Made by a program: the position numbers and the translations under genes | Assembly (NCBI GenBank): GCA_026129335.1 | Contig: JAHCIH010000009.1 | Location: 1 to 64,000 of the forward strand | DNA: 64,000 nt | Direction: 5' to 3' | DNA from: Anaerolineales bacterium | GTDB lineage: Bacteria > Chloroflexota > Anaerolineae > Anaerolineales > UBA11579 | The notes under the pieces: generated by a model | Seen by the model: only the letters and a program-made list of their open reading frames with translations | What the model was told of the DNA's origin: nothing | Database searches by the model: none | In this document: positions 1,970 through 61,513 of the stretch, one piece after another | How positions within the stretch are numbered: the first letter of the stretch is position 1 | How the letters are laid out: every line of letters begins with the position of its first letter

Positions 1970-2882
1970 CGGATACATCCCGCGACCGCGCGGCCGGGGC
2001 ATTGCCCTGGTGCTGGGCGGCGGCGGATTGCGCGGTGGCGCCCATGTGGGCGTGCTGCGCGTGCTGGAACGCGAAAACATCCCCGTGCGCGCCCTGGCCG
2101 GCAGCAGCATCGGCGGCCTGATCGCCGCCGCTTACGCGGCCGGCACGTCGCCGCACGACATCCAACGGCGCCTCTCGGCGATCGAGTTCCGCCGCCTGCT
2201 GCGCGAGCCCAGCCAGGCGGATAACGCCTTGCTGGGTCTCGACGGCGTGGAAAGCACGCTGCGTGAGGTGCTCGGCGATAAGCACTTCCAAGACCTGGAC
2301 ATCCCGCTGGCCCTGACCGCGCTGGACGTGGGCCGCGGCTACGAAGTGGTGCTCACTCGCGGCTCGGTGCTGGACGCGGTGATGGCCACCATCGCCATCC
2401 CCGGCATTTTCCCCAGCCGTCAACTGAACGGCTGGGAGCTGGTGGATGGCGGCCTTAGCAACCCGGTGCCGGTGCAGGTGGCCCGCGAGCTGGCTCCCGG
2501 CCTGCCCGTGGTCGCCGTGCCGCTCGGCCCGCCGCTGGAGCCGCAAGGCCAAACGGCGGAAGTGAGCCACAACGACATTGCCTCGCTGCCCATCCCCAGC
2601 CCGGTGAAGCGCTTTCGCATGGGCCGCGCCTTCATGGCTTTTACCGAGGCGATCACCATGAGCGGCCGCATCCAGGGCGAGCTGCGCCTGGCCGCCGAGA
2701 AGCCGGAGTTGATCATCCGTCCGCCGGTCGCAGACGTCGGCGTGCTGGGCACGCCGGATGTCGGCGATCTGGTGGCCCGCGGCGAAGCCGCCGCCCAGGC
2801 GGCGCTGCCTGCGCTGCGCCGCTTGCTGCAGCCGGCCCCGCTGCGCGTAGTGCGCAACTGGCTCCGGCGAGAACAAGCATAA
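1959..2882 (+). CDS. Patatin-like phospholipase (RssA-type)
   Basis: This is a predicted serine hydrolase acting on lipids. It has the oxyanion-hole motif GGGGLRG (residues 20-26), the nucleophile elbow GSSIGG with Ser50, and the DGG motif near residue 165 that supplies the Asp of the patatin dyad, followed by NPVP. No signal peptide is visible, so it is likely cytoplasmic or peripheral. The start is TTG at 1959 inside the last codons of proS, with AAGGTGG upstream, which suggests translational coupling. The true substrate cannot be read from sequence. A terminator hairpin follows. Confidence 0.88.
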   Translation: MKSNGYIPRPRGRGIALVLGGGGLRGGAHVGVLRVLERENIPVRALAGSSIGGLIAAAYAAGTSPHDIQRRLSAIEFRRLLREPSQADNALLGLDGVESTLREVLGDKHFQDLDIPLALTALDVGRGYEVVLTRGSVLDAVMATIAIPGIFPSRQLNGWELVDGGLSNPVPVQVARELAPGLPVVAVPLGPPLEPQGQTAEVSHNDIASLPIPSPVKRFRMGRAFMAFTEAITMSGRIQGELRLAAEKPELIIRPPVADVGVLGTPDVGDLVARGEAAAQAALPALRRLLQPAPLRVVRNWLRREQA

Positions 2883-2911
2883 GGGCGCAGCCTGCTGCGC
2901 AGGGGAATCAA

Positions 2912-2939
2912 AAAAAGAGCGGCGTGAGCCGCTCTTTTT
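2912..2939. terminator. Bidirectional terminator between convergent genes
   Basis: The arm AAAAAGAGCGGC pairs with GCCGCTCTTTTT around a GTGA loop. It lies between the plus-strand patatin gene and the minus-strand DUF333 gene and can serve both. Confidence 0.8.
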
Positions 2940-2954
2940 GCAATCTGATCTTAC

Positions 2955-3359
2955 CTATGGTGCGTTGCAGGCTCCGTGGCGGAAGAAAGCCCATTCCTCG
3001 CACTCACTGCCATCGGCAAAGACGCAGACACCGAATTGGCCGCCCTGCGAGTCCGTGCGAATGTCGACCGTACCGCTGTTCTCCGCGCAGTAGACCGAGG
3101 CCGGATTGGGCATGCCGGCCGGTCCGGCGCAGGCGTTGTCTTGATAGAACGCCCATTCCTCGCATTCACGGCCGTCGTTAAACACGCAAACACCGTATTC
3201 GCCTGAGCCGTCTGTGCGTACTTCGTGGCGCCCGCCCTGTTCAACGCAGTACGCTGAGGCAGGATTGGCCAAGGCGGTAGTATCCTGGGTGCTGTTGAAA
3301 TACCAGAGAAGCCCACCCGCCAGCACAATTAAAAGGATGATTAACAGTGTTCTGTTCAT
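2955..3359 (-). CDS. Membrane-anchored protein with two DUF333 domains
   Basis: The 134-residue product starts with a hydrophobic segment (about residues 4-20) that is a signal anchor or uncleaved signal. It then carries two tandem copies of a roughly 45-residue domain with the pattern NPAS-YC ... GVCVF-DG-ECEEWAF ... C, typical of the DUF333 family sometimes called putative hemolysin. Each copy has cysteines likely to be disulfide-bonded outside the cell. A TTG start 13 codons upstream is possible, but the ATG at 3359 places the hydrophobic segment at the N-terminus. The function of DUF333 is not established. Confidence 0.8.
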   Translation of the reverse strand: MNRTLLIILLIVLAGGLLWYFNSTQDTTALANPASAYCVEQGGRHEVRTDGSGEYGVCVFNDGRECEEWAFYQDNACAGPAGMPNPASVYCAENSGTVDIRTDSQGGQFGVCVFADGSECEEWAFFRHGACNAP

Positions 3360-3432
3360 GCCGTTCAGTGTAGCAGAAGGGCGCACCGGCTTCAACAACT
3401 AAATTTCGACTACAACCTAAGCAATGGCTCGC

Positions 3433-4299
3433 CTATTTGCGCAGCATATCGGGGATCTGCTCCGGGTGGTCGGCAATCTGCACGCCGGCCTTCTTCAGCG
3501 CGGCGATCTTATCCGCTGCGCTGCCTTCGCCGCCCTCCACGATGGCGCCGGCGTGGCCCATGCGCTTGCCTGGCGGAGCGCTCTGCCCGGCGATGAAGCT
3601 GACCACCGGCTTGGTCATGCTCTGGCTGATGAAGTCGGCGGCCTTCTCTTCGTCGCTGCCGCCGATCTCACCGATCATCACGATCTTGTCGGTCAGCGGG
3701 TCATCCTCGAACATTTGCAGCACGTCGATGTAGTTCAAGCCTTTGACCGGGTCGCCGCCGATGCCCACGCACGTGGTGGCGCCCAAACCGACCTGCTTGA
3801 GGGCGTAGAGCACCTCGTAGGTTAGTGTGCCGGAGCGGGAGACCACACCAATGTTGCCGGGGATGGCGTTGTCGCCGGGGATGAAACCGATTTTGGTTTC
3901 GCCGGGGGTCAGCAGACCGGGGCAGTTGGGGCCGATCAGCTGTACGCCCTTGAAATCCAGGTAGGTGCGCACACGCATCATGTCCTGGATGGGGATGCCT
4001 TCGGTGAGGCAGATGATCAGGCGCACGCCCGAGTCGGCTGCTTCGAGCATTGCGTCCGGCGCGGCGGCCTCGGGCACGATGATCATGCTGCAGTCGGCGC
4101 CGGTCGCTTCCACCGCCACGCGCACCGAGTCGAAGACGGGCACCTTGCCATCCAGCACCCATTCGCCGCCCTTGCCCGGGCGTACGCCGCCCACCACCTG
4201 GGTGCCGTATTCGAGCATGCGCTCGGAATGGAACATGCCTTCGCGCCCGGTGATGCCTTGCACCACCACGCGGGTGTTCTTGTCAGCGAGAATTCCCAT
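3433..4299 (-). CDS. sucD: Succinyl-CoA ligase (ADP-forming) alpha subunit
   Basis: Together with SucC this enzyme interconverts succinyl-CoA and succinate with substrate-level phosphorylation in the citric acid cycle. The 288-residue length is standard. The N-terminal CoA-binding Rossmann domain opens with the pattern VQGITGREG, and the phosphohistidine motif GHAGAI lies near residue 245. AAAGGAA precedes the start. In most genomes sucC and sucD are adjacent; here about 500 nt carrying a GxxExxY element separates them. Citrate synthase, another cycle enzyme, is at the far end of the window. Confidence 0.97.
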
Positions 4300-4326
4300 T
4301 AGAGATTCCTTTCAGTCAATGATTCC

Positions 4327-4801
4327 TTAACCACAAAGACACAAAGGGCACAAAGATTTTTCTTATCCATTAACTACTCGGCGTATTCCTTGTTTGAGAA
4401 ACAGGACATTGAAATTGAGCAATATCCCGAGCCACAGATTGGTCAGCTTCAGATAGGTCAAAAGCTGCGCTTGGTGGATCGGTTGAATGCGTTCAACAGT
4501 TTTCACTTCGACAATCACTTGTTTATCCACTAACAAATCCAGTCTATATCCTGCATCCAGTGTGGCGTCTTTGTACTTCACCGGCAATGCAACTTCCTTG
4601 GCGAATTTGACGCCCCGTAAATTCAGCTCGTGGCATAGGCTGGTGAGATAAGCTGATTCCAACAAGCCTGGGCCTAAAGCCGAATGAACTTCAATAGCGG
4701 CACCAATAATCTCCTGCGAGAGTTCGTTTGCCCGCTCCTTTAGATTCATATAAATCTTTTGCTTTGTGCTTTCTTTGTGTTCTCTGTGTCTTTGTGGTTA
4801 G
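4327..4801. mobile_element. Small inverted-repeat element carrying a GxxExxY gene
   Basis: The left end (4327-4365) begins TTAACCACAAAGACACAAAG and the right end (4751-4801) is its imperfect reverse complement, finishing CTTTGTGTCTTTGTGGTTAG. The two ends enclose one gene. The right end supplies the TAA stop codon of sucC, and the left end contains the stop codon of the internal gene. This indicates insertion exactly at the sucC stop, between two genes that are normally contiguous. Lower GC than the flanks fits a transferred element. Confidence 0.7.
4363..4749 (-). CDS. GxxExxY family protein
   Basis: This 128-residue protein has the family motif as GLLESAY (about residues 27-33). It then has a nuclease-like core resembling PD-(D/E)XK folds: D-AGYRLDLLVD followed by VIVEVK (about residues 66-84). 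I recognise the family, whose biochemical role is unknown; the nuclease fold is an inference from the D...E-x-K spacing. The gene lies inside an inverted-repeat element between sucC and sucD, on the same strand as both. It is AT-richer than the suc genes. Confidence 0.85.
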   Translation of the reverse strand: MNLKERANELSQEIIGAAIEVHSALGPGLLESAYLTSLCHELNLRGVKFAKEVALPVKYKDATLDAGYRLDLLVDKQVIVEVKTVERIQPIHQAQLLTYLKLTNLWLGILLNFNVLFLKQGIRRVVNG

Positions 4802-5934
4802 GTGCCTTTGGCGGCTTCCACAGCCTTCTGCGCGGCTTCAGCCAGGGTTTCGGCGGTGATCATGTTGGCCTCGGCCAGCAGGGCGCGGCCCTCGGCTGCG
4901 TTGGTGCCCACCAAGCGGATGACCATCGGCACCGAAGGCTTGACCGTTTCCATCGCCTCCAGGATGCCGCGGGCCACTTCGTCGCCGCGGGTGATGCCGC
5001 CGAAGATGTTGAACAAGACGGCTTTGACGTTCTTGTCGGAGAGGATGATGCGCAGCGCCGCGGCGACCTTGTCGGCGCCGGCGCCGCCGCCGATGTCCAG
5101 GAAGTTGGCCGGCTCGCCGCCGAACAGCTTGATGATGTCCATGGTGGCCATCGCCAGGCCGGCGCCGTTCACCATGCAGCCGATCTCGCCATCCAGTTTG
5201 ATGTAAGTCAGGCCGCTCTCGCGGGCCTCGATTTCGGCGGGCTCCTCGGCGGAGAGATCGCGCAGTTCTTCGAAGTCCTTGTGGCGATACAGCGCGTTGT
5301 CGTCGATCAGCATCTTGCCGTCGATCGCCAGCAGTTCGCCGTCGCCGGTGATCACCAGCGGGTTCACCTCGGCCAGGGTGGCGTCCGACTCGTGGTATGC
5401 CTCCCACAGCCCCTTGGTGATGGTGTGGAACGCGCCCCACAGCGAGCGGTCCAGCTCAATGCCGATCGCCAGGTCGCGGATGTTGTAGTCCTGCACGCCC
5501 AGCAGCGGATTGACGTGTACGCGGATGATCTTCTCCGGGTTGGTCTTGGCCACCTCTTCGATGTCCACGCCGCCGGCCGCCGAGGCGATGATCACCGGCT
5601 GGCGCGCCGCCCGGTCGTTGGTGATGCCCAAATAGATCTCGCTGGCGATGTCGATCGCCGGGTCCACCAGCACCTTGTTGACCGGCAGGCCTTTGATGTC
5701 CATGCCCAGGATGCCGGCGGCGACTTCCTCGGCCTCTTTGGCATCTTTGGCCAGCTTCACGCCGCCGGCCTTGCCGCGGCCGCCCACCAACACCTGGGCT
5801 TTAACTACAACGCGGCCACCCAGCTTCTTTGCGATCTTGCCTGCTTCTTTGGGGGTGGCCGCTACTTCGCCCTGCGGGACGGGCACGCCATATTCGGCGA
5901 AAATTTGCTTGGAAATGTACTCATGCAACTTCAT
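4798..5934 (-). CDS. sucC: Succinyl-CoA ligase (ADP-forming) beta subunit
   Basis: The beta subunit carries the ATP-grasp nucleotide-binding domain and completes the SucCD complex. The 378-residue protein starts [10 protein letters not shown] and contains [12 protein letters not shown] (about 51-62), the [16 protein letters not shown] region, and the C-terminal ligase block with DIGGGA and FNIFGGI. Length is close to the family norm (385-390). AAGGAG lies upstream of the ATG. Its stop codon is the terminal TAA of the adjacent inverted-repeat element, so the last residues could differ slightly from the ancestral ones. Confidence 0.97.
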
Positions 5935-54037: not shown

Positions 54038-55657
54038 ATGGCCGTCGCCCTTCGCCCCAACACCGTGAACGCGCTCTGGCAGGGCATCCGCCAGGACGCC
54101 GGCAGCCTCCTGGCTGCCCTGCAGCCTCCCGAAACCCCCAGTACCGGATTGCATTTCTACGACATTGAGAAGCCCGACGGGCGCACTTTCCGCATCCACC
54201 TGCGCGTGGAGCCCAGCGGGAACGGCGTGCTGTTCATCGACGTCACCGATGTGGTCCACCTCAACCAGACCGCTACGCTGATGGCCAAGATGGCGCTGGA
54301 CGGCGTGACGCGCGCCGCCGCACGGGCGCGGCTGGCGGCCTGGCGCAGCGGCGCAGACCCCGCCCGCTTGAGCAGCGAGCTGGACGAAATGTACGACATG
54401 GTCGACAGCTTCCGCCACCCAGATGGCGACTGCGCCACCTGCCGCCTCTCAGATGCGGTGTCCATGTCGCCGCTGTTCAGCATCGAGATCAACGCGCCCT
54501 ATAAAGTGGACATGGCGTTGACCTATGGCTGCAACAACGAGTGCCCGCATTGCTACAATGAAAACGACCGCCTGCAGATGCCTTCGCTGCCGTTGGACGA
54601 GTGGTACGCCGTGCTGGACCGCCTGGCCGAGTTGGGCGTGCCGCACCTCATCCTCACCGGCGGCGAGGCCACCTTGCACCCCGACCTGCCCCAAATCATC
54701 CGCTATGCGGATAGCCTGGGCATGGTGGTGGGCCTGAACACCAACGGCCGCCACATCGCCCACAAGCCTTATATGGATGAGCTGGCCGAAGCCGGCTTGA
54801 ACCACGTGCAGATCACGCTGGGCTCCAGCCGCGCCGAAGTGCACGACGCCATGATGGGCGCTACCTCCTTCGAGCAGACCCTGCGCGGCATCGAGAACGC
54901 CGTGGCCAGCCGCGTGCACGTGATCACCAACACCACGCTGATGCGCGCCAACATGGGCCACGCCGAAGAGATCATTGAATTTCTCTATTCGCTGGGCATC
55001 CGCACCTTTGCGATGAACGGCATGATCTATTCCGGCGGCGGCTTCGATCATCCTTCGGCGATCTCCGAGGCGGAGACGCCCGCGCTGCTGGTGCGGGTGC
55101 GCGACAAGGCCCAGGAACTGGGCATGCGCTTCCTGTGGTACACGCCCACCGAGTACTGCCGCATGTCCCCGGTAGAGCTGGAGATCGGCGCCAAGCGCTG
55201 CAATGCCGGCGAGTATTCGCTGTGCATTGAGCCCAACGGCGATGTGCTGCCCTGCCAGTCCTACTACGTTTCGGCGGGCAATATTCTGCACGACCCCTGG
55301 GAGCAGATTTGGGACGGCGAACTGTTCCGCTCCTTCCGGCATCGCGAGGAAGACCCTAAAGGCTACGGCCTGCCGGAGAAGTGCTGGACCTGCCCCGACC
55401 TGCCGCTGTGCGGCGGCGGCTGCCGTATCGAGCGCGAGGCCCGCGACGGCGTGCGCGTGGCCGGCGAGGGCGGCGGTGGCTGCTCCGGCTGCAGCGGCAG
55501 CTGCGGCACCGGGGGCGCGGCGCACTCCATCAAGAGCCACGTGCACACGGCCGGCTATATCCCCACCGGCGGATTCATCCCCTCGCCCAGCACCACGCGC
55601 ACCACGGTGCGCTCCAGCGGCAACATGTCACTGATCGGCCTGGAGGAAGTACAGTAG
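54038..55657 (+). CDS. Radical SAM/SPASM protein with PqqD-like N-terminus and Cys-rich tail
   Basis: The 539-residue protein has three visible parts. Residues 35-110 look like a PqqD/RRE domain (RIHLRVEPSGNGVL, VVHLNQTATLMAKM). The radical SAM core has the cluster motif C-x3-C-x2-C in YGCNNECPHCYNEN (near residue 165) and GGEATLHPDL. A SPASM region follows with CNAGEYSLC, LPC and CWTCPDLPLCGGGC. The last 70 residues are Gly/Cys/Ser-rich (GGGGCSGCSGSCG) and then Thr/Pro-rich. Such proteins modify peptides; the substrate is unknown. The ATG at 54038 follows TATACT by 6 nt. Confidence 0.87.
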   Translation: MAVALRPNTVNALWQGIRQDAGSLLAALQPPETPSTGLHFYDIEKPDGRTFRIHLRVEPSGNGVLFIDVTDVVHLNQTATLMAKMALDGVTRAAARARLAAWRSGADPARLSSELDEMYDMVDSFRHPDGDCATCRLSDAVSMSPLFSIEINAPYKVDMALTYGCNNECPHCYNENDRLQMPSLPLDEWYAVLDRLAELGVPHLILTGGEATLHPDLPQIIRYADSLGMVVGLNTNGRHIAHKPYMDELAEAGLNHVQITLGSSRAEVHDAMMGATSFEQTLRGIENAVASRVHVITNTTLMRANMGHAEEIIEFLYSLGIRTFAMNGMIYSGGGFDHPSAISEAETPALLVRVRDKAQELGMRFLWYTPTEYCRMSPVELEIGAKRCNAGEYSLCIEPNGDVLPCQSYYVSAGNILHDPWEQIWDGELFRSFRHREEDPKGYGLPEKCWTCPDLPLCGGGCRIEREARDGVRVAGEGGGGCSGCSGSCGTGGAAHSIKSHVHTAGYIPTGGFIPSPSTTRTTVRSSGNMSLIGLEEVQ

Positions 55658-55666
55658 GGGACGGCT

Positions 55667-56209
55667 TTGCGACGCAGGAATTCGAATAGGCTCCAGGGTT
55701 ATGATTACTCCTTACCCGGAGCCTATTTTGTTACCTTGCTTACCAATGAGCGAGCGCCGTTGTTTGGAAAAGTCCATGAAGACAAGGTGATGCTCAGCGC
55801 GCTTGGTGAGTTGGCACAGAGAGAATGGCGGCTATCGGCCGCGATGCGACAAGAAATACGATTGGATGAGTTTGTCGTTATGCCAGACCACTTTCATGCG
55901 ATTGTTTTTATAGATGATCATGATTCCAGAAGCGGAGAACCCCTAAAAAAGACCGTAGGGGCGCACGGCCGTGCGCCCCTACAAGGAGATCAAGCTAAGC
56001 CTCAATCGCGGAAGCCAAGGTCACTGGGTTCGCTAATCGCTGCTTATAAAGCGGCCAGCACGCGTGTAGTTAGGCAGCATCTTGAGAATCCCGACCTAAA
56101 AGTATGGCAGAGAAATTATTATGACCGTGTGGTTCGAAATCAAAATGAACTGGAGCGCATTCGTGAGTACATCGCTTACAACCCTCTGAAGCTTTGGGAG
56201 GGGTGGTGA
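55667..56209 (+). CDS. REP-associated tyrosine transposase (RAYT, Y1 type)
   Basis: The 180-residue protein has the N-terminal RLQGYDYSLPGAYFVT, the HxH motif in VVMPDHFHAIV and a Tyr near SLIAAYK that would be the nucleophile. It therefore looks intact. It starts with TTG at 55667. Its coding region contains a perfect 28-nt palindrome (55955-55982) translated as VGAHGRAPL, apparently inserted in frame. Low GC and position 10 nt after the radical SAM gene suggest a mobile insertion that split the neighbourhood. Confidence 0.85.
   Translation: MRRRNSNRLQGYDYSLPGAYFVTLLTNERAPLFGKVHEDKVMLSALGELAQREWRLSAAMRQEIRLDEFVVMPDHFHAIVFIDDHDSRSGEPLKKTVGAHGRAPLQGDQAKPQSRKPRSLGSLIAAYKAASTRVVRQHLENPDLKVWQRNYYDRVVRNQNELERIREYIAYNPLKLWEGW
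55955..55982. repeat. Perfect 28-nt GTAGGGGCG palindrome inside transposase gene
   Basis: The 14-nt half GTAGGGGCGCACGG is followed directly by its reverse complement. The first nine bases match the intergenic palindrome at 30437-30487. It is in frame and does not disrupt the transposase reading frame. Confidence 0.9.
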
Positions 56210-56276
56210 TGTTCGGATTAGACCCTAGGCGGCGCGCCGCCGTGCGCTCCCACAACTCACGACAGCCGAGGTGAGT

Positions 56277-57143
56277 ATGCCCATTGATCTCGCGTTGTTG
56301 TTTGCGCTAATCCTGGCTCTGGCCTACGGCATTTTCCGTTATCTGCGCTGGCGGCGGGAACGGATGCTGCCCTACACACCGGCGCTGGCGCGCATTGAGG
56401 GCGGCGGGGTCAAGCGCGGGCTGACGCCCGCCGAGGGCGCCGTGCTGCTAGGCCGCCCGCTGCACGTCACCCTGACCCTGGTCATCTTCGAGATGCTGCG
56501 CAAAGGCTTCCTGCGCCAGGTGGCTGCCGAGCCGCTCACCGTCGAGGTGGCCGAGGCCTTTCGCACGCACAACCGCGGCCTCAGCCCGCAGGCGCGCGGC
56601 GACCAGCGCCGCGCCGCCGCGCAGGCGATCAACGCCACCCTGCACTTGTACGAAGAGCCGTTCCTCGAGATCATCGAGGCGCACCCCGGCCGCCCGGTGG
56701 CTGAGCTGGACCTGGGCGTGGCCGTGCAGCCGCTGGTGCGCTATGTAGCCGGCCGGGTGGGCGGCTACAGCCTGGAGGAGAGCCGCGAATATTACCGCCT
56801 GATCATCGAGCGCGCCCCGCGCGAGGCGCGCAGCGACGGCCGGCTGACCTTCGAGCGCCAAAAAGTGTTGGATCGCAATTTCGGTTGGGTGCTGTTGGGC
56901 GAAGACTTCGCCGCTGTGCTGGACGCGCCCGAGTTGAGCTATCTGCCGCTGTGGCTGCGCCCGCCGCGTGCCGCCGTCGATGAGCTGGGCGGGCGCAGCT
57001 TCGCCGCCTGGGCGCAGGCGGTGATGGATTCGCTGGCCGGGGTGGTCGCTGAAGACGATGTGAGGCTGACCCTGGGCCGCGAGGAAGACGCCACCACGGC
57101 GACCCTGCTCAGCGACATCACCCGCACGACATTTTACGGATGA
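56277..57143 (+). CDS. DUF2207-like membrane protein lacking a Cys tail
   Basis: The 288-residue protein has one N-terminal transmembrane segment (LALLFALILALAYGIFRYL) and a soluble part related to the cytosolic half of the protein at 59448-61163: both share R-RM-YTPALARIEG--KRGLT--E-AVLL-like wording and later DRNFGWVLLGEDF / NLEWTMMDKNY. It lacks the N-terminal DUF2207 signal-peptide domain and the Cys-Ala tail. A GTG at 56271 and this ATG are alternatives. Probably a truncated or specialised paralog; function unknown. Confidence 0.7.
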   Translation: MPIDLALLFALILALAYGIFRYLRWRRERMLPYTPALARIEGGGVKRGLTPAEGAVLLGRPLHVTLTLVIFEMLRKGFLRQVAAEPLTVEVAEAFRTHNRGLSPQARGDQRRAAAQAINATLHLYEEPFLEIIEAHPGRPVAELDLGVAVQPLVRYVAGRVGGYSLEESREYYRLIIERAPREARSDGRLTFERQKVLDRNFGWVLLGEDFAAVLDAPELSYLPLWLRPPRAAVDELGGRSFAAWAQAVMDSLAGVVAEDDVRLTLGREEDATTATLLSDITRTTFYG

Positions 57144-57196: not shown

Positions 57197-58117
57197 ATGT
57201 CTAAATCCCCGAGCCTGTATAAAGCCGAAGATGCCTTCCGCGATTATGTGCCGCGCACTCAGGCGTTCATGGAACTGGGCGCCAAGGCTGGCTTGCGCCC
57301 CGCCGCCGAGGACAAGGCCCGCGGCGCGCTGGTGGTCATCGACATGCAGAACGACTTCGTGCGCCCCGACGGCGCGCTGAGCGTGCCGGGCGCGGAGGCG
57401 GATTTGCAGCGCCTGGTGGAATTCATCTACAACAACGCCGAGCAAATCAGCGCCATCTACTGCACGCTGGATTCGCACTACCCGATGCAGATCTTTTACA
57501 GCGAGTGGTGGCACAACCCGGCCACCGGGGAGCAGCCGGCGGCCTTCACGGTCATCACCGCCGAGAACGTGGCCAATGGCGTTTGGGCCGCCCGGCAGGA
57601 CGCCGAGTGGTCGCAGCACTACGTGGCCGAGTTGGGCAAGCTGGGCCAGAAGCAGCTGATGATCTGGCCCAAGCACACCATGGTAGGCACCTGGGGCCAG
57701 GCGCTGTCGCCGGCGCTGTACGAGGCCATTGCCTGGCACAGCGCCGCCCGCCTGGCGCAGCCGGTCTTCGTGTCCAAGGGCGACCTGCCGCAAGTGGAGC
57801 GCTACGGCGCCTTCGCGTCCGAGGTGGAGTATCCCGGCGACCCGCGCGGCCGCGCAGACAGCGCCTTACTGGACGAGCTGGCCGGCTACGAACGCACCTG
57901 GTGGGCCGGCGAAGCGGAGACGCACTGTGTCATCGCCAGCCAGGTGCAGGCCGCGGAATACTTCGCCAATCAGCCCAAGGTGCTGGAAGGCATGCACTTT
58001 CTGATGGACTGTACCAGCCCCATCTTGCACCCCGAAGTGGACTTCGTCGGCCCGACGCGGGCGGAGCAAGAACGCCTGGCTGGGCTGGGCGTGAAATTGG
58101 TCAAAAGCACGGATTAG
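57197..58117 (+). CDS. Nicotinamidase/isochorismatase family hydrolase
   Basis: The 306-residue protein has the cysteine-hydrolase triad: Asp in VIDMQNDF, Lys in IWPKHTMVG and Cys in ETHCVIAS. This matches nicotinamidase-related enzymes, which cleave amides, but the family also includes isochorismatases and ureidoacrylate hydrolases. It is longer than typical nicotinamidases (about 200 residues). CAAGGAG precedes the ATG, and a strong terminator follows, so it may be a single-gene unit. Confidence 0.83.
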   Translation: MSKSPSLYKAEDAFRDYVPRTQAFMELGAKAGLRPAAEDKARGALVVIDMQNDFVRPDGALSVPGAEADLQRLVEFIYNNAEQISAIYCTLDSHYPMQIFYSEWWHNPATGEQPAAFTVITAENVANGVWAARQDAEWSQHYVAELGKLGQKQLMIWPKHTMVGTWGQALSPALYEAIAWHSAARLAQPVFVSKGDLPQVERYGAFASEVEYPGDPRGRADSALLDELAGYERTWWAGEAETHCVIASQVQAAEYFANQPKVLEGMHFLMDCTSPILHPEVDFVGPTRAEQERLAGLGVKLVKSTD

Positions 58118-58269: not shown

Positions 58270-59448
58270 CTAAACCTTAGCTTTCCAGATCTTGCTCCAT
58301 TTGTCCGTCAGCATATTGCCCAGTACTTTCTTGCCGCCCTGGCCGGCCAGCACATCGCCGTCCGGTTCCACGTAGAGCCAGGCGCGGCCAGCGCCGTCTG
58401 GCGCTTTGGTTTTCTGTGCCTTGAGTTCCAGGCTCACGGGGTTCAGCGCCGAGTAGGGCACCGGCATGTCCCAGACCAGCGGCAGGCCCACGTGGTTGGC
58501 ATGGTCGGCGGCGGCTTGCAGCTGCTCGCTGAGCGCCGCATCGCTCTCGCTCAGCGAGAGCGCCCGCACGCCGCTCTCGGCGATGCGGTCAATCAGCGCG
58601 TTGATCGTCTTGGCGTTCTGCTTGGTCAACGTCAGGTGGGCGGCGATGAAAATGTCGTCGTCCAGCACCTTGCGCCAATAGGCGAAGCTGGCCAGCGAGT
58701 CCCAGGTCTCTTCTTTGTTGGGCTGCAGCACGATCATGGCGTGGTCCAGGCCGGCGTCGAGTAAGGTTTTCAAATAGCGCGTGTCACCCAGTTTGCGGCC
58801 GTCGGTGATCAGGCCGGTGACCAGGCCGTGGGCCTCGCCGTGCTGCAGCAGCTGCGGCAGGTCCTCACGCAGGGTTGGCTCGCCGCCGGTGAAGAGCACG
58901 TGCGGGATGCCGACCTCATAGGCCTTGTCGATCACCTGCTTCCATTCGTCGGTGCTCAGCTCTCGGGTCACGCGCTTGTGCGGCGTGGCATCCCGCGGCG
59001 CGCCGGCGGGCAGCTTGTAGGTCAGCGCGCAGTCCAGTCGGTAGGGCGCGGTCATCGGGTCGCTATATGGAGCCTGGCGTTCGAGGTCCAGGTAGGTCAC
59101 CGGGTCGAGGTCTGGCGTCTCGATGAGCGTCTGCAAGCTTTGGGCGAAGTCGGCGTAGTCTTGCTTGACCTGCTTTTTACTGGTGCGGTAACGTTTGCTG
59201 ACCTGGGCGGCGACTTCATCCGGCGGGGTCAGATGGATGAAGTGGTAAGCGTATTCAGTGGCTGTCTGGTTGAGGTGCAGCACAGTGGACGCATTGAGCA
59301 CCAGCAGTCCCAGCCCGCCCGGCTCGACGCGCAGGTGCAAGCGGTAATGGAATGGGTGGCTGGCCGGCGCAGTGTAGGTATAAAAGCCGGGTTCCAGCGG
59401 CGCGGCAGGTTCGCCGCCGATGCCGAAGCGTTCCAGCAGGCCGGGCAT
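58270..59448 (-). CDS. PqqD/radical SAM-like protein without cluster cysteines
   Basis: The 392-residue protein has an N-terminal PqqD/RRE-like domain (LHLRVEPGGLGLL, VLHLNQTATEYAYHFI, then a KRYRTSKKQVKQDYADF helix). It continues into a radical-SAM-like barrel with GGEPTLREDLPQLL. Where the paralog at 54038 has the C-x3-C-x2-C motif, this one reads YKLPAGAPRDATPHK, and the SPASM cysteines are also absent (VEPDGDVLAGQGG). It is therefore likely non-catalytic. Its ATG shares one base with the upstream stop (TAATG), so translation is coupled to the Cys-tailed protein. Confidence 0.85.
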   Translation of the reverse strand: MPGLLERFGIGGEPAAPLEPGFYTYTAPASHPFHYRLHLRVEPGGLGLLVLNASTVLHLNQTATEYAYHFIHLTPPDEVAAQVSKRYRTSKKQVKQDYADFAQSLQTLIETPDLDPVTYLDLERQAPYSDPMTAPYRLDCALTYKLPAGAPRDATPHKRVTRELSTDEWKQVIDKAYEVGIPHVLFTGGEPTLREDLPQLLQHGEAHGLVTGLITDGRKLGDTRYLKTLLDAGLDHAMIVLQPNKEETWDSLASFAYWRKVLDDDIFIAAHLTLTKQNAKTINALIDRIAESGVRALSLSESDAALSEQLQAAADHANHVGLPLVWDMPVPYSALNPVSLELKAQKTKAPDGAGRAWLYVEPDGDVLAGQGGKKVLGNMLTDKWSKIWKAKV

Positions 59449-61163
59449 TAGCGACCGCCTCCGGCGCAGGCACAGGCGCAGCCCGCACAGGCGCAGGCGC
59501 ACGAGGAGCCGCCGCCGCTAAATCCGCCGCCACCACTGCTGGTGCGGCTGGGCGGCGGGGGTGGGTTGGTCACCTTGGTCACGCCGCCAGTGAAGCTGGA
59601 CAGGTTGCCGATCACGCCGCCGGCCATGTTTTGGGCGCCCTGCACCACAGAGGCGGCGAAGTTGCCGCCCGGCAGGGTGGGCAGCGAAACACCGCCACCG
59701 GTGGACCGCGTTGGAGCGCTCGGCGCCCGCCCGCTGCCCGCGCCGGCGCTGCGGTAGGTCGGGTCGTAGCGGCCCCACCACATCGGCGCGTGCACGGTGC
59801 CGCCGCCGAAAGTATCCCGCGTGCGGCGCTCGTAGTTCTTGTCCATCATGGTCCACTCGAGGTTCTCTTCGTAGAGCTTGCTCTGGACCTTGGGCGTGCC
59901 CGCGGCTTCTACCTGTGTCCAGGCATCCTCGGCGATCTTGCGGTAGAAGTCCGTCGTCTCGCGTTTGCTGAAGCCGCGCATCTTGTTGCCCACGCCTTTG
60001 ACCAGGCGCACCATCATGTCCTGTAGCTCCTTGCGGCGCTTGGTGGTGTTGCCCTCTCGGAAGGCGCCGATGAACTGCTGTTCATAATCGCGCAGCTCCA
60101 ACGGGTAGGGCGGTTCGGCGATCTTCAGTTCCAGCGGAGTTTGTTTGACCACTTCGGCGACGCCCTTCTTGATCGTCGAGAAGAGGATCATGCCGAGGAT
60201 CTTGTCCATCGGCTGCTCCAGAAGCACGGCGGCTTCCGGCGCGGTCAGGCCACGCTTGATGCCGTGGCCCTCAATGGCGATCTTGGGCGGCAGGTACTGC
60301 ATGCGCCGCTTGCGCTCGGCGGCGAAGCTGGCCCAAATGATCACGATGATGAAAATGGCGAAGCACAGGCAGAGCAGGAAGGGGATGACCACTTCGGGGT
60401 CCAGCCCCAGTCGCTGCCAGATGCTGGGCTCCAGGATGGCGCCGGCGGGCACATAGTGTGCCGGGAACGACGCGCCGAAGACATACTCCCGCGACGGGCT
60501 GGCGCTGGTATTGCGCCAGGTGTAGGTGATGCGGCCCTGGCTGTCCCGGCCGGTCAACGGCTCATCGGGGAAGCCGGGGTGGCCGGCGGTGTGCCAGCGC
60601 GGTTCGTCCGGCGTGACCCCGTGCGGCAGGTGGAAAGTGACCGTCAGGTCGGTGGTGCCGTAGGTGAACTCGCTGCCGAAGTAATTGGGCATGAACAGCG
60701 CGCTGGCGTAATCGCTGTCCTGGTTGTCGGTGTAGAGCACCTCGCGGATGCCCACCACCCGCGCCCGGAAGGTGCCGCTGGCCCCACCGGGGATCGGGTT
60801 GCTGAACCAGATCGCCGGTCCGGCGTCGATGTAGGGCGATTGGCGGTCAATAAACGAAGCCGGCTGGCCGTTGAGCGAAGCGCTGATCGCGCCAGCCGAA
60901 TAATTCCTGTTCGGCAGGCCCAGGTCGACCACGTCGATGGGGTGCGCGCCGACGCCGTTCTGGAATACCACTTCGTATTCCACGGTCATCGAGCCGTCGG
61001 TTTCCCAATAGACGTCCACCCAGGCGCGCGGGACGGAGAAGTAGTAGTCCTGCGCCGCGGCGCTGAACGGCGCGGCCAAGGCGACGACGAGGACCAACAG
61101 TAGCGGCAGCGCGCGCCAGAACGATTTGAATTTGTTTTGGGCCGGGGTGGAGCGGTTTACCAT
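59448..61163 (-). CDS. DUF2207 membrane protein with C-terminal Cys-Ala tail
   Basis: The 571-residue protein starts with a signal peptide (LPLLLVLVVALAAPFSAAAQ). A DUF2207 extracytoplasmic domain follows (VEYEVVFQNGVGAHPIDVVDLGL). A transmembrane segment (VVIPFLLCLCFAIFIIVIIW) and a cytosolic region related to the protein at 56277 come next. After a Gly/Ser linker it ends with the residues CACACAGCACACAGGGR, six cysteines in eleven residues. The ATG at 61163 overlaps the upstream stop, and the downstream radical-SAM-like gene overlaps its stop. The tail is a plausible target of post-translational modification. Confidence 0.85.
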   Translation of the reverse strand: MVNRSTPAQNKFKSFWRALPLLLVLVVALAAPFSAAAQDYYFSVPRAWVDVYWETDGSMTVEYEVVFQNGVGAHPIDVVDLGLPNRNYSAGAISASLNGQPASFIDRQSPYIDAGPAIWFSNPIPGGASGTFRARVVGIREVLYTDNQDSDYASALFMPNYFGSEFTYGTTDLTVTFHLPHGVTPDEPRWHTAGHPGFPDEPLTGRDSQGRITYTWRNTSASPSREYVFGASFPAHYVPAGAILEPSIWQRLGLDPEVVIPFLLCLCFAIFIIVIIWASFAAERKRRMQYLPPKIAIEGHGIKRGLTAPEAAVLLEQPMDKILGMILFSTIKKGVAEVVKQTPLELKIAEPPYPLELRDYEQQFIGAFREGNTTKRRKELQDMMVRLVKGVGNKMRGFSKRETTDFYRKIAEDAWTQVEAAGTPKVQSKLYEENLEWTMMDKNYERRTRDTFGGGTVHAPMWWGRYDPTYRSAGAGSGRAPSAPTRSTGGGVSLPTLPGGNFAASVVQGAQNMAGGVIGNLSSFTGGVTKVTNPPPPPSRTSSGGGGFSGGGSSCACACAGCACACAGGGR

Positions 61164-61513
61164 TTGGGTTTCTCTTCGACCTGGTAGACCGCGCCGCAAT
61201 AAGGGCATTCCACATTCAGCGCGCCGCCCACCAGGCGCACATTGTCGCCGCTGAGCGCGCCGCCGCACTGGCGGCACTGGAAGTTCTCCAGGTTTACGTC
61301 ACCGCTCAGTTCGACCTGGTAGGTGACCTTGTGCTCCTGGGCTGCGGGGTCTTTGCGGTTGACGTACCAGATGATCGCCAGGCCGATGGCGCTGCTCAGC
61401 GCGCCGACCGCGATCCAGCCAATGCCGCCGCCTTCTTCACTGAAAGCGCCCCAAATAAAAAGCACGCCAAAAAATACAAGAATGGCGGCTACGATGTTGC
61501 CGACTGTTTTCAT
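61157..61513 (-). CDS. Membrane protein with C-terminal zinc ribbon
   Basis: The 118-residue protein has two transmembrane segments (VGNIVAAILVFFGVLFIWGAF and GWIAVGALSSAIGLAIIWYV). A soluble tail follows with CRQC and CPYC, two CxxC pairs likely to bind zinc. Its last codons overlap the next gene's ATG by 7 nt, so it is the first gene of a three-gene operon with the Cys-tailed protein and the degenerate radical SAM protein. Role unknown; perhaps a scaffold or metal-binding partner. Confidence 0.8.
   Translation of the reverse strand: MKTVGNIVAAILVFFGVLFIWGAFSEEGGGIGWIAVGALSSAIGLAIIWYVNRKDPAAQEHKVTYQVELSGDVNLENFQCRQCGGALSGDNVRLVGGALNVECPYCGAVYQVEEKPKW

Follow-up and report, generated by a model that had tools for sequence, protein, structure and literature searches.

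Organization of the locus

The window, that is, the whole stretch of 64,000 nucleotides analyzed here from an Anaerolineales bacterium, carries on its minus strand an operon whose first gene (positions 61157 to 61513) encodes a small transmembrane and zinc-ribbon protein. In nearly every complete locus, this gene adjoins that of a Cys-tailed membrane protein (59448 to 61163, minus strand), whose stop codon overlaps the ATG of a radical-SAM/SPASM paralog without clusters, here named pseudo A (58270 to 59448, minus strand, ATG at 59448). The overlap reads TAATG (TAA/ATG), and translation from 59448 to 58270 on the minus strand gave a frame free of stops over 392 amino acids. An intact radical-SAM/SPASM enzyme of the type we call long, in which all cluster cysteines are conserved, is encoded on the plus strand (54038 to 55657) and is the proposed catalytic partner. 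The usual gene order, found in most families, is zinc-ribbon protein, tail protein, active enzyme, and pseudoenzyme. In the family of the window, the active gene is separate from the tail and pseudo A genes (129 kb apart in one genome) and is followed by a tail-less gene homologous to the transmembrane and cytosolic regions of that protein (56271 to 57143, plus strand; profile match, E 5.8e-33).

In its C-terminal part the active enzyme harbors a Cys-rich stretch, GGGGCSGCSGSCGTG (55471 to 55515, plus strand), which most members of the window's family conserve and the short-type active enzymes lack. A small open reading frame separating the active gene from the tail-less homolog (55667 to 56209, plus strand), which we take to resemble a REP-associated transposase, contains the palindrome TAGGGGCGCACGGCCGTGCGCCCCTAC. 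Between the active and the dead genes lies an isochorismatase-like hydrolase (57197 to 58117, plus strand), whose counterparts were found, among the loci compared, in the two closest relatives only.

Loss of the cluster ligands in pseudo A

BLASTP aligned pseudo A with the protein encoded at 54038 over 396 columns with 30% identity (E 6e-54), the alignment spanning the PqqD-like region, LNQTAT, the GGE block, and the first half of SPASM, thus bearing out the paralogy that the original prediction had proposed by eye across the first three of these blocks. The Pfam Radical_SAM profile matched pseudo A with an E value of 4.2e-9 (37.2 bits versus a cut-off of 29.5) despite the absent cysteines, a match to the family far above chance level. 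Pseudo A retains a partial barrel fold but not the CX3CX2C motif of catalytic radical-SAM enzymes: the cluster site, LTYGCNNECPHCYN in the 54038 paralog, reads LTYKLPAGAPRDATPHK in pseudo A, and the former motif lies within YKLPAGAPRDATPHK (residues 144 to 158; 58975 to 59019, minus strand). The seven-Cys auxiliary-cluster region that defines SPASM is likewise gone. What remains is a Cys-less and truncated half SPASM region (residues 354 to 392; 58273 to 58389, minus strand) in which the first-half cysteines are substituted and the second half is missing outright, so that the protein ends in ...IWKAKV and the last four SPASM Cys columns hold gaps or other residues. The GGE motif (residues 188 to 190; 58879 to 58887, minus strand) is kept. 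Translation and ortholog alignment thus confirmed the predicted loss of the cluster and SPASM cysteines, and the intact frame and the TAATG coupling to the Cys-tailed gene were both verified in the sequence. Since all ligands are lost, the usual binding of the radical-SAM and SPASM [4Fe-4S] clusters is impossible for pseudo A.

The sole cysteine of the window's pseudo A, C140 (codon at 59029 to 59031, minus strand), lies in the first strand, outside the cluster positions. Of the 77 pseudo A sequences, 59 have a cysteine in this column, which no active sequence does, and in parts of the genus of the window Ile or Ala takes its place.

Pseudo A is conserved throughout the order and under purifying selection

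Orthologs were collected from the order Anaerolineales in samples of 61 and then 251 genomes. They were found throughout the order, with 43 to 90% identity in the 61-genome sample, and in both samples the closest pseudo A homolog usually resided in the same genome as a second, intact paralog. In the first set, all 35 orthologs lacked the cluster motif, which the intact paralogs all retain, and the loss held also in a genus whose pseudo A is only 32 to 41% identical to the reference sequences used. With loci from the genome collection included, the triad was found in 0 of 77 distinct pseudo A sequences and in 70 of 70 active sequences, counts that come from two overlapping collections in which some genomes may have been counted twice. 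Two of the 77 have a single Cys at position 1, and in the SPASM columns of the whole set Cys is not among the commonest residues. In contrast to the triad, GGE is present in all 77 pseudo A and all 70 active sequences, and its neighborhood, GGEPTLR, is nearly invariant across pseudo A.

Measured against its two closest relatives, pseudo A had dN/dS ratios of 0.102 and 0.115; comparison with a more remote congener gave 0.261, and pairs of other congeners gave 0.10 to 0.16. Pseudo A is therefore under purifying selection, with the active paralog giving a lower ratio in every comparison. The loss of every metal ligand and the faster evolution relative to the active paralog are what one would expect of a functionless, decaying copy, yet the frames are intact in nearly all genomes, dN/dS is about 0.1 against close relatives, the sequences form a single deep, order-wide clade (100/100 support), GGE is invariant, and recognition-domain residues are conserved. 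We therefore reject decay as extremely improbable. The cysteines being kept in no ortholog, the Cys-less form is the conserved one, and the claim in the original prediction that this is a functional pseudoenzyme is well supported.

A recognition domain is retained and constraint is shifted towards it

A PqqD-like/RiPP-recognition-element domain was assigned to residues 21 to 112 of pseudo A (59113 to 59388, minus strand) on the basis of a profile match to structure 6jx3 and alignment with SkfB and SuiB. Pfam PqqD matched below threshold (E 0.0036, 18.0 bits versus 23.4), while a profile of 42 orthologs matched the TfuB1 recognition-element structure 6jx3 with an E value of 0.0036 over residues 42 to 105. 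Together with a structural alignment that begins at residue 36, these matches identify a PqqD-like winged helix.

SkfB and SuiB are RiPP maturases with N-terminal recognition domains. A model of pseudo A, predicted with 73 homologs (mean pLDDT 88.9, pTM 0.89), was compared with known structures by Foldseek and VIA-align. The best structural matches of the model were PqqE (Z 21.5, 231 residues, rmsd 3.0), SkfB (Z 22.1, 306 residues, rmsd 4.9, model residues 37 to 392), and SuiB (Z 20.2, 312 residues, rmsd 4.7, model residues 36 to 392), and in the latter two the predicted superposition takes in the recognition domain, the barrel, and the half SPASM. Pseudo A would thus share the fold and domain order of these maturases, which, unlike pseudo A, are active and bind clusters.

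Conservation was compared between pseudo A and the active paralog from the same genomes in two sets. The recognition domain was conserved to much the same degree in pseudo A (0.631 versus 0.614 and 0.536 versus 0.485), whereas the barrel was conserved less (0.703 versus 0.804 and 0.529 versus 0.688), giving interactions between domain and paralog of 0.118 and 0.210, with bootstrap 95% intervals that exclude 0. By this measure, constraint in pseudo A has moved from the barrel towards the recognition domain, an indirect pattern that would be expected for a subunit retained for binding and not for catalysis.

The Cys-tailed membrane protein

The model of the tail protein suggests a signal or transmembrane helix (residues 12 to 34), a beta domain (42 to 235), a transmembrane helix (256 to 288), a cytosolic part, and the tail. 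Judging from the basic residues that follow the helix, the C-terminal part should be cytosolic. The tail itself, CACACAGCACACAGGGR (59451 to 59501, minus strand), is the proposed modification target. An alignment of 41 homologs, with columns averaging 41% identity, shows the tail form CACACA(CA)GCACACAGGGR to be near-invariant, and its synonymous codons vary freely. The tail pattern was present in 190 of the 201 genomes of the order with a strong match to the enzyme family and in none of the 50 others (Fisher 2.5e-42, with the 251 genomes counted individually and phylogeny uncorrected). Cultured species that carry the pattern include Ornatilinea apprima, Levilinea saccharolytica, and Bellilinea caldifistulae.

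Membership of the tail protein in DUF2207 (PF09972) or TIGR04222 was considered and rejected, as neither Pfam nor NCBIfam gave a match and a Pfam search with 40 homologs likewise gave no match to either family. Foldseek returned weak partial matches only (TM 0.2 to 0.3), to oligosaccharyltransferase subunits and M1 aminopeptidases; no function was inferred from these. In genome G556, two tail proteins with an identical tail stand in tandem (L125, 4267 to 6543 and 6467 to 8236) beside one enzyme pair. In another class, locus L251 has a second Cys-tail system, with a DUF2207 protein whose tail repeats are of the CHDACHSAC kind (4052 to 5794, minus strand) and, at 2649 to 4046 (minus strand), a radical-SAM gene of its own with a clear PqqD domain.

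Distribution of the tail, a second dead paralog, and natural loss of pseudo A

Scanning a genome collection for the DNA pattern of the tail returned at least 117 stretches; as the scan used the tail's own pattern, divergent tails would be missed and tail conservation outside the order is biased upward. Among the matches listed, Heimdall-, Hod-, and Lokiarchaeota and Thermoplasmatota have the tail protein beside an intact radical-SAM gene, and the same pairing was found in Fermentibacterota, Aminicenantes, Zixibacteria, Coatesbacteria, Acidobacteriota, and Hydrogenedentota. Whole-genome searches of representatives outside the order gave only one close homolog each and no pseudoenzyme, in genomes of which several may be incomplete.

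In Planctomycetota, Armatimonadota, and some Chloroflexota, the tail is accompanied by a different dead paralog, pseudo B, which has lost the radical-SAM motif and GGE and retains the last four SPASM cysteines in 9 to 10 of 11 sequences. Pseudo B falls into a supported clade (99/95) that also contains the long active enzymes and one solo enzyme and is separate from pseudo A, whose clade (100/100) has as its neighbor a single intact enzyme of another class. A single origin of pseudo A and pseudo B is neither shown nor excluded: the AU test did not reject it, with p 0.355 on a poorly sampled tree and 0.066 when sampling was better. The window's active enzyme groups with the long type, elsewhere the companion of pseudo B. 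Therefore, if pseudo A in the window's family works with this enzyme, its active partner differs from that found elsewhere in the order.

Six genomes of genus g38 (L260, L261, L262, L264, L265, and L119/L263) encode the tail protein and one intact enzyme without the pseudoenzyme. The tail ends in this genus deviate from the usual form and read CACACAGGGSGR, CACAGGGGGR, CACACAGGGGGR, CACAGGGGGGGR, or CDSCACACAGGGR. Since the absence of the pseudoenzyme in g38 probably reflects a single loss event, the connection of this loss with the drifted tail ends is only suggestive. Because a lone intact enzyme, with no dead partner found, serves this tail in many phyla and g38 has lost pseudo A, pseudo A is a lineage-specific accessory and not an obligatory part of the tail system.

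Proposed role of pseudo A

We consider it probable that pseudo A is a catalytically dead recognition or scaffold subunit that pairs with an intact enzyme and delivers the Cys-Ala tail for modification. Keeping its PqqD-like recognition domain, barrel, and GGE strand, pseudo A would pair with an intact radical-SAM/SPASM enzyme (the 54038 protein here, the product of the next gene in other families), grip the newly made membrane protein via its cytosolic segment or tail, and hand the tail to the active partner, which would install a radical-based modification. The likeliest product would be a thioether on Cys, a guess by analogy with related maturases. Our data show ligand loss, ortholog conservation, purifying selection, a predicted fold, coupling of the genes, and joint occurrence of the tail with the enzyme family, and from them we infer the heterodimer, the tail binding, and the chemistry; recognition or presentation of the tail by pseudo A is suggested by the recognition fold, the shift of constraint, and the gene coupling. 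Also in favor of this role, the window's family retains pseudo A though its active partner is of the long type. Some observations sit less easily with this role: the recognition domain is also present in the active paralog, and the occurrence of the tail in many phyla and in g38 without the pseudoenzyme argues against a strict requirement.

The presence of GGE in 77 of 77 sequences also exceeds the obvious need of a pure scaffold and, with the near invariance of GGEPTLR and the frequent Cys in the C140 column that no active sequence shares, would fit a repurposed SAM- or nucleotide-binding protein that holds its ligand via the GGE strand and serves as a sensor or a non-radical tail enzyme. The cluster that orients SAM is lost, however, the Asn after the third strand (70 of 70 active sequences) is mostly Asp or another residue in pseudo A, C140 is replaced within the window's genus, and constraint on the barrel is relaxed, making this reading unlikely. 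To a second alternative we assign an equally low probability, namely, that pseudo A escorts the tail protein, loads it with metal, or delivers it to the membrane, independently of the active enzyme. The window's family, which couples pseudo A to the tail gene and has the active gene elsewhere, and the neighboring zinc-ribbon gene would both agree with it, but other families place pseudo A after the active gene in the same cluster, and both its paralogy with maturases and its kept recognition fold fit pairing with a maturase. Less probable still is a Cys tail that stays unmodified as a metal or redox tail while the radical-SAM pair acts on another substrate sharing the cassette. Runs of C-A-C-A could bind metal alone, but the tail follows the enzyme family across 251 genomes, its neighbor in archaea and in many bacterial phyla is an intact radical-SAM gene, and in one genome an unrelated second Cys tail comes with a radical-SAM gene of its own.

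A delivering subunit is thus the reading of pseudo A that we favor, and the finding points to an unnamed tail-modification system common to Asgard archaea, Thermoplasmata, and many bacterial phyla. More tentatively, and with less than even confidence, we suggest a trans-domain family of membrane proteins whose near-invariant Cys-Ala tail may be modified in place by a radical-SAM enzyme, anchored, and in a cellular role, and for which at least two lineages may have separately evolved dead subunits (pseudo A and pseudo B). If true, the modified tail would be permanently anchored, as opposed to a secreted peptide.

Relation to known systems

Dead radical-SAM partners are of a known kind, since the Bacteroidales "pseudo rSAM" proteins (IPR026418), cluster-less paralogs that co-occur with a radical-SAM enzyme and a precursor and for which a partnership was hypothesized, have been described as untested partners (PMC10352776). 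In our searches of the literature on pseudo-rSAM, SPASM pseudoenzymes, and Cys tails with radical SAM, this remark was the sole relevant result; databases record such partners, and we found no tested function for any of them. Pseudo A has a clear partner, a probable substrate, an order-wide range, a case of natural loss, and a sister system built on another dead partner, and the role of a cluster-less radical-SAM protein thereby becomes directly testable. The present case differs from the Bacteroidales one (PMC10352776) in phylum and precursors, and IPR026418 was absent among the matches listed (25 of 43 for pseudo A and 25 of 71 for the ortholog alignment). The barrel of all 42 orthologs was matched by NCBIfam TIGR04347, a haloarchaeal pseudo-SAM/SPASM family (best E 3.9e-18), and the window's pseudo A lies outside this family because its score of 55.7 bits falls below the cut-off of 525. 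The substrate, the tail system, and the pseudo A family are new to the libraries searched.

Experimental precedent comes from the TrnC/TrnD heterodimer that matures the sactipeptide thuricin CD, in which two radical-SAM paralogs with recognition domains likewise act jointly (PMC12093266, PMC12406949). Only the radical-SAM activity of TrnC is strictly essential (PMC12093266), and the recognition domains were proposed to lie at the heterodimer interface (commentary, PMC12406949). Unlike pseudo A, TrnD retains its clusters and cleaves SAM (PMC12093266, PMC12406949), and whereas thuricin CD is a bacteriocin, the proposed substrate here is the tail of a membrane protein. By analogy, pseudo A may best be read as an extreme TrnD, the second active site of the pair having been removed by evolution.

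With the TIGR04222 and DUF2207 membrane proteins, some of whose Cys tails adjoin MNIO enzymes (PMC12452194), the tail protein shares a membrane location, a low-complexity Gly/Ser/Cys C terminus, and a position beside a RiPP-type modifying enzyme; it differs in that the enzyme is a radical-SAM protein and the tail is near-invariant and predicted on the cytosolic side. A distant paralogous tail protein in genome G070 scored above the DUF2207 cut-off and gave a weak match to TIGR04222.
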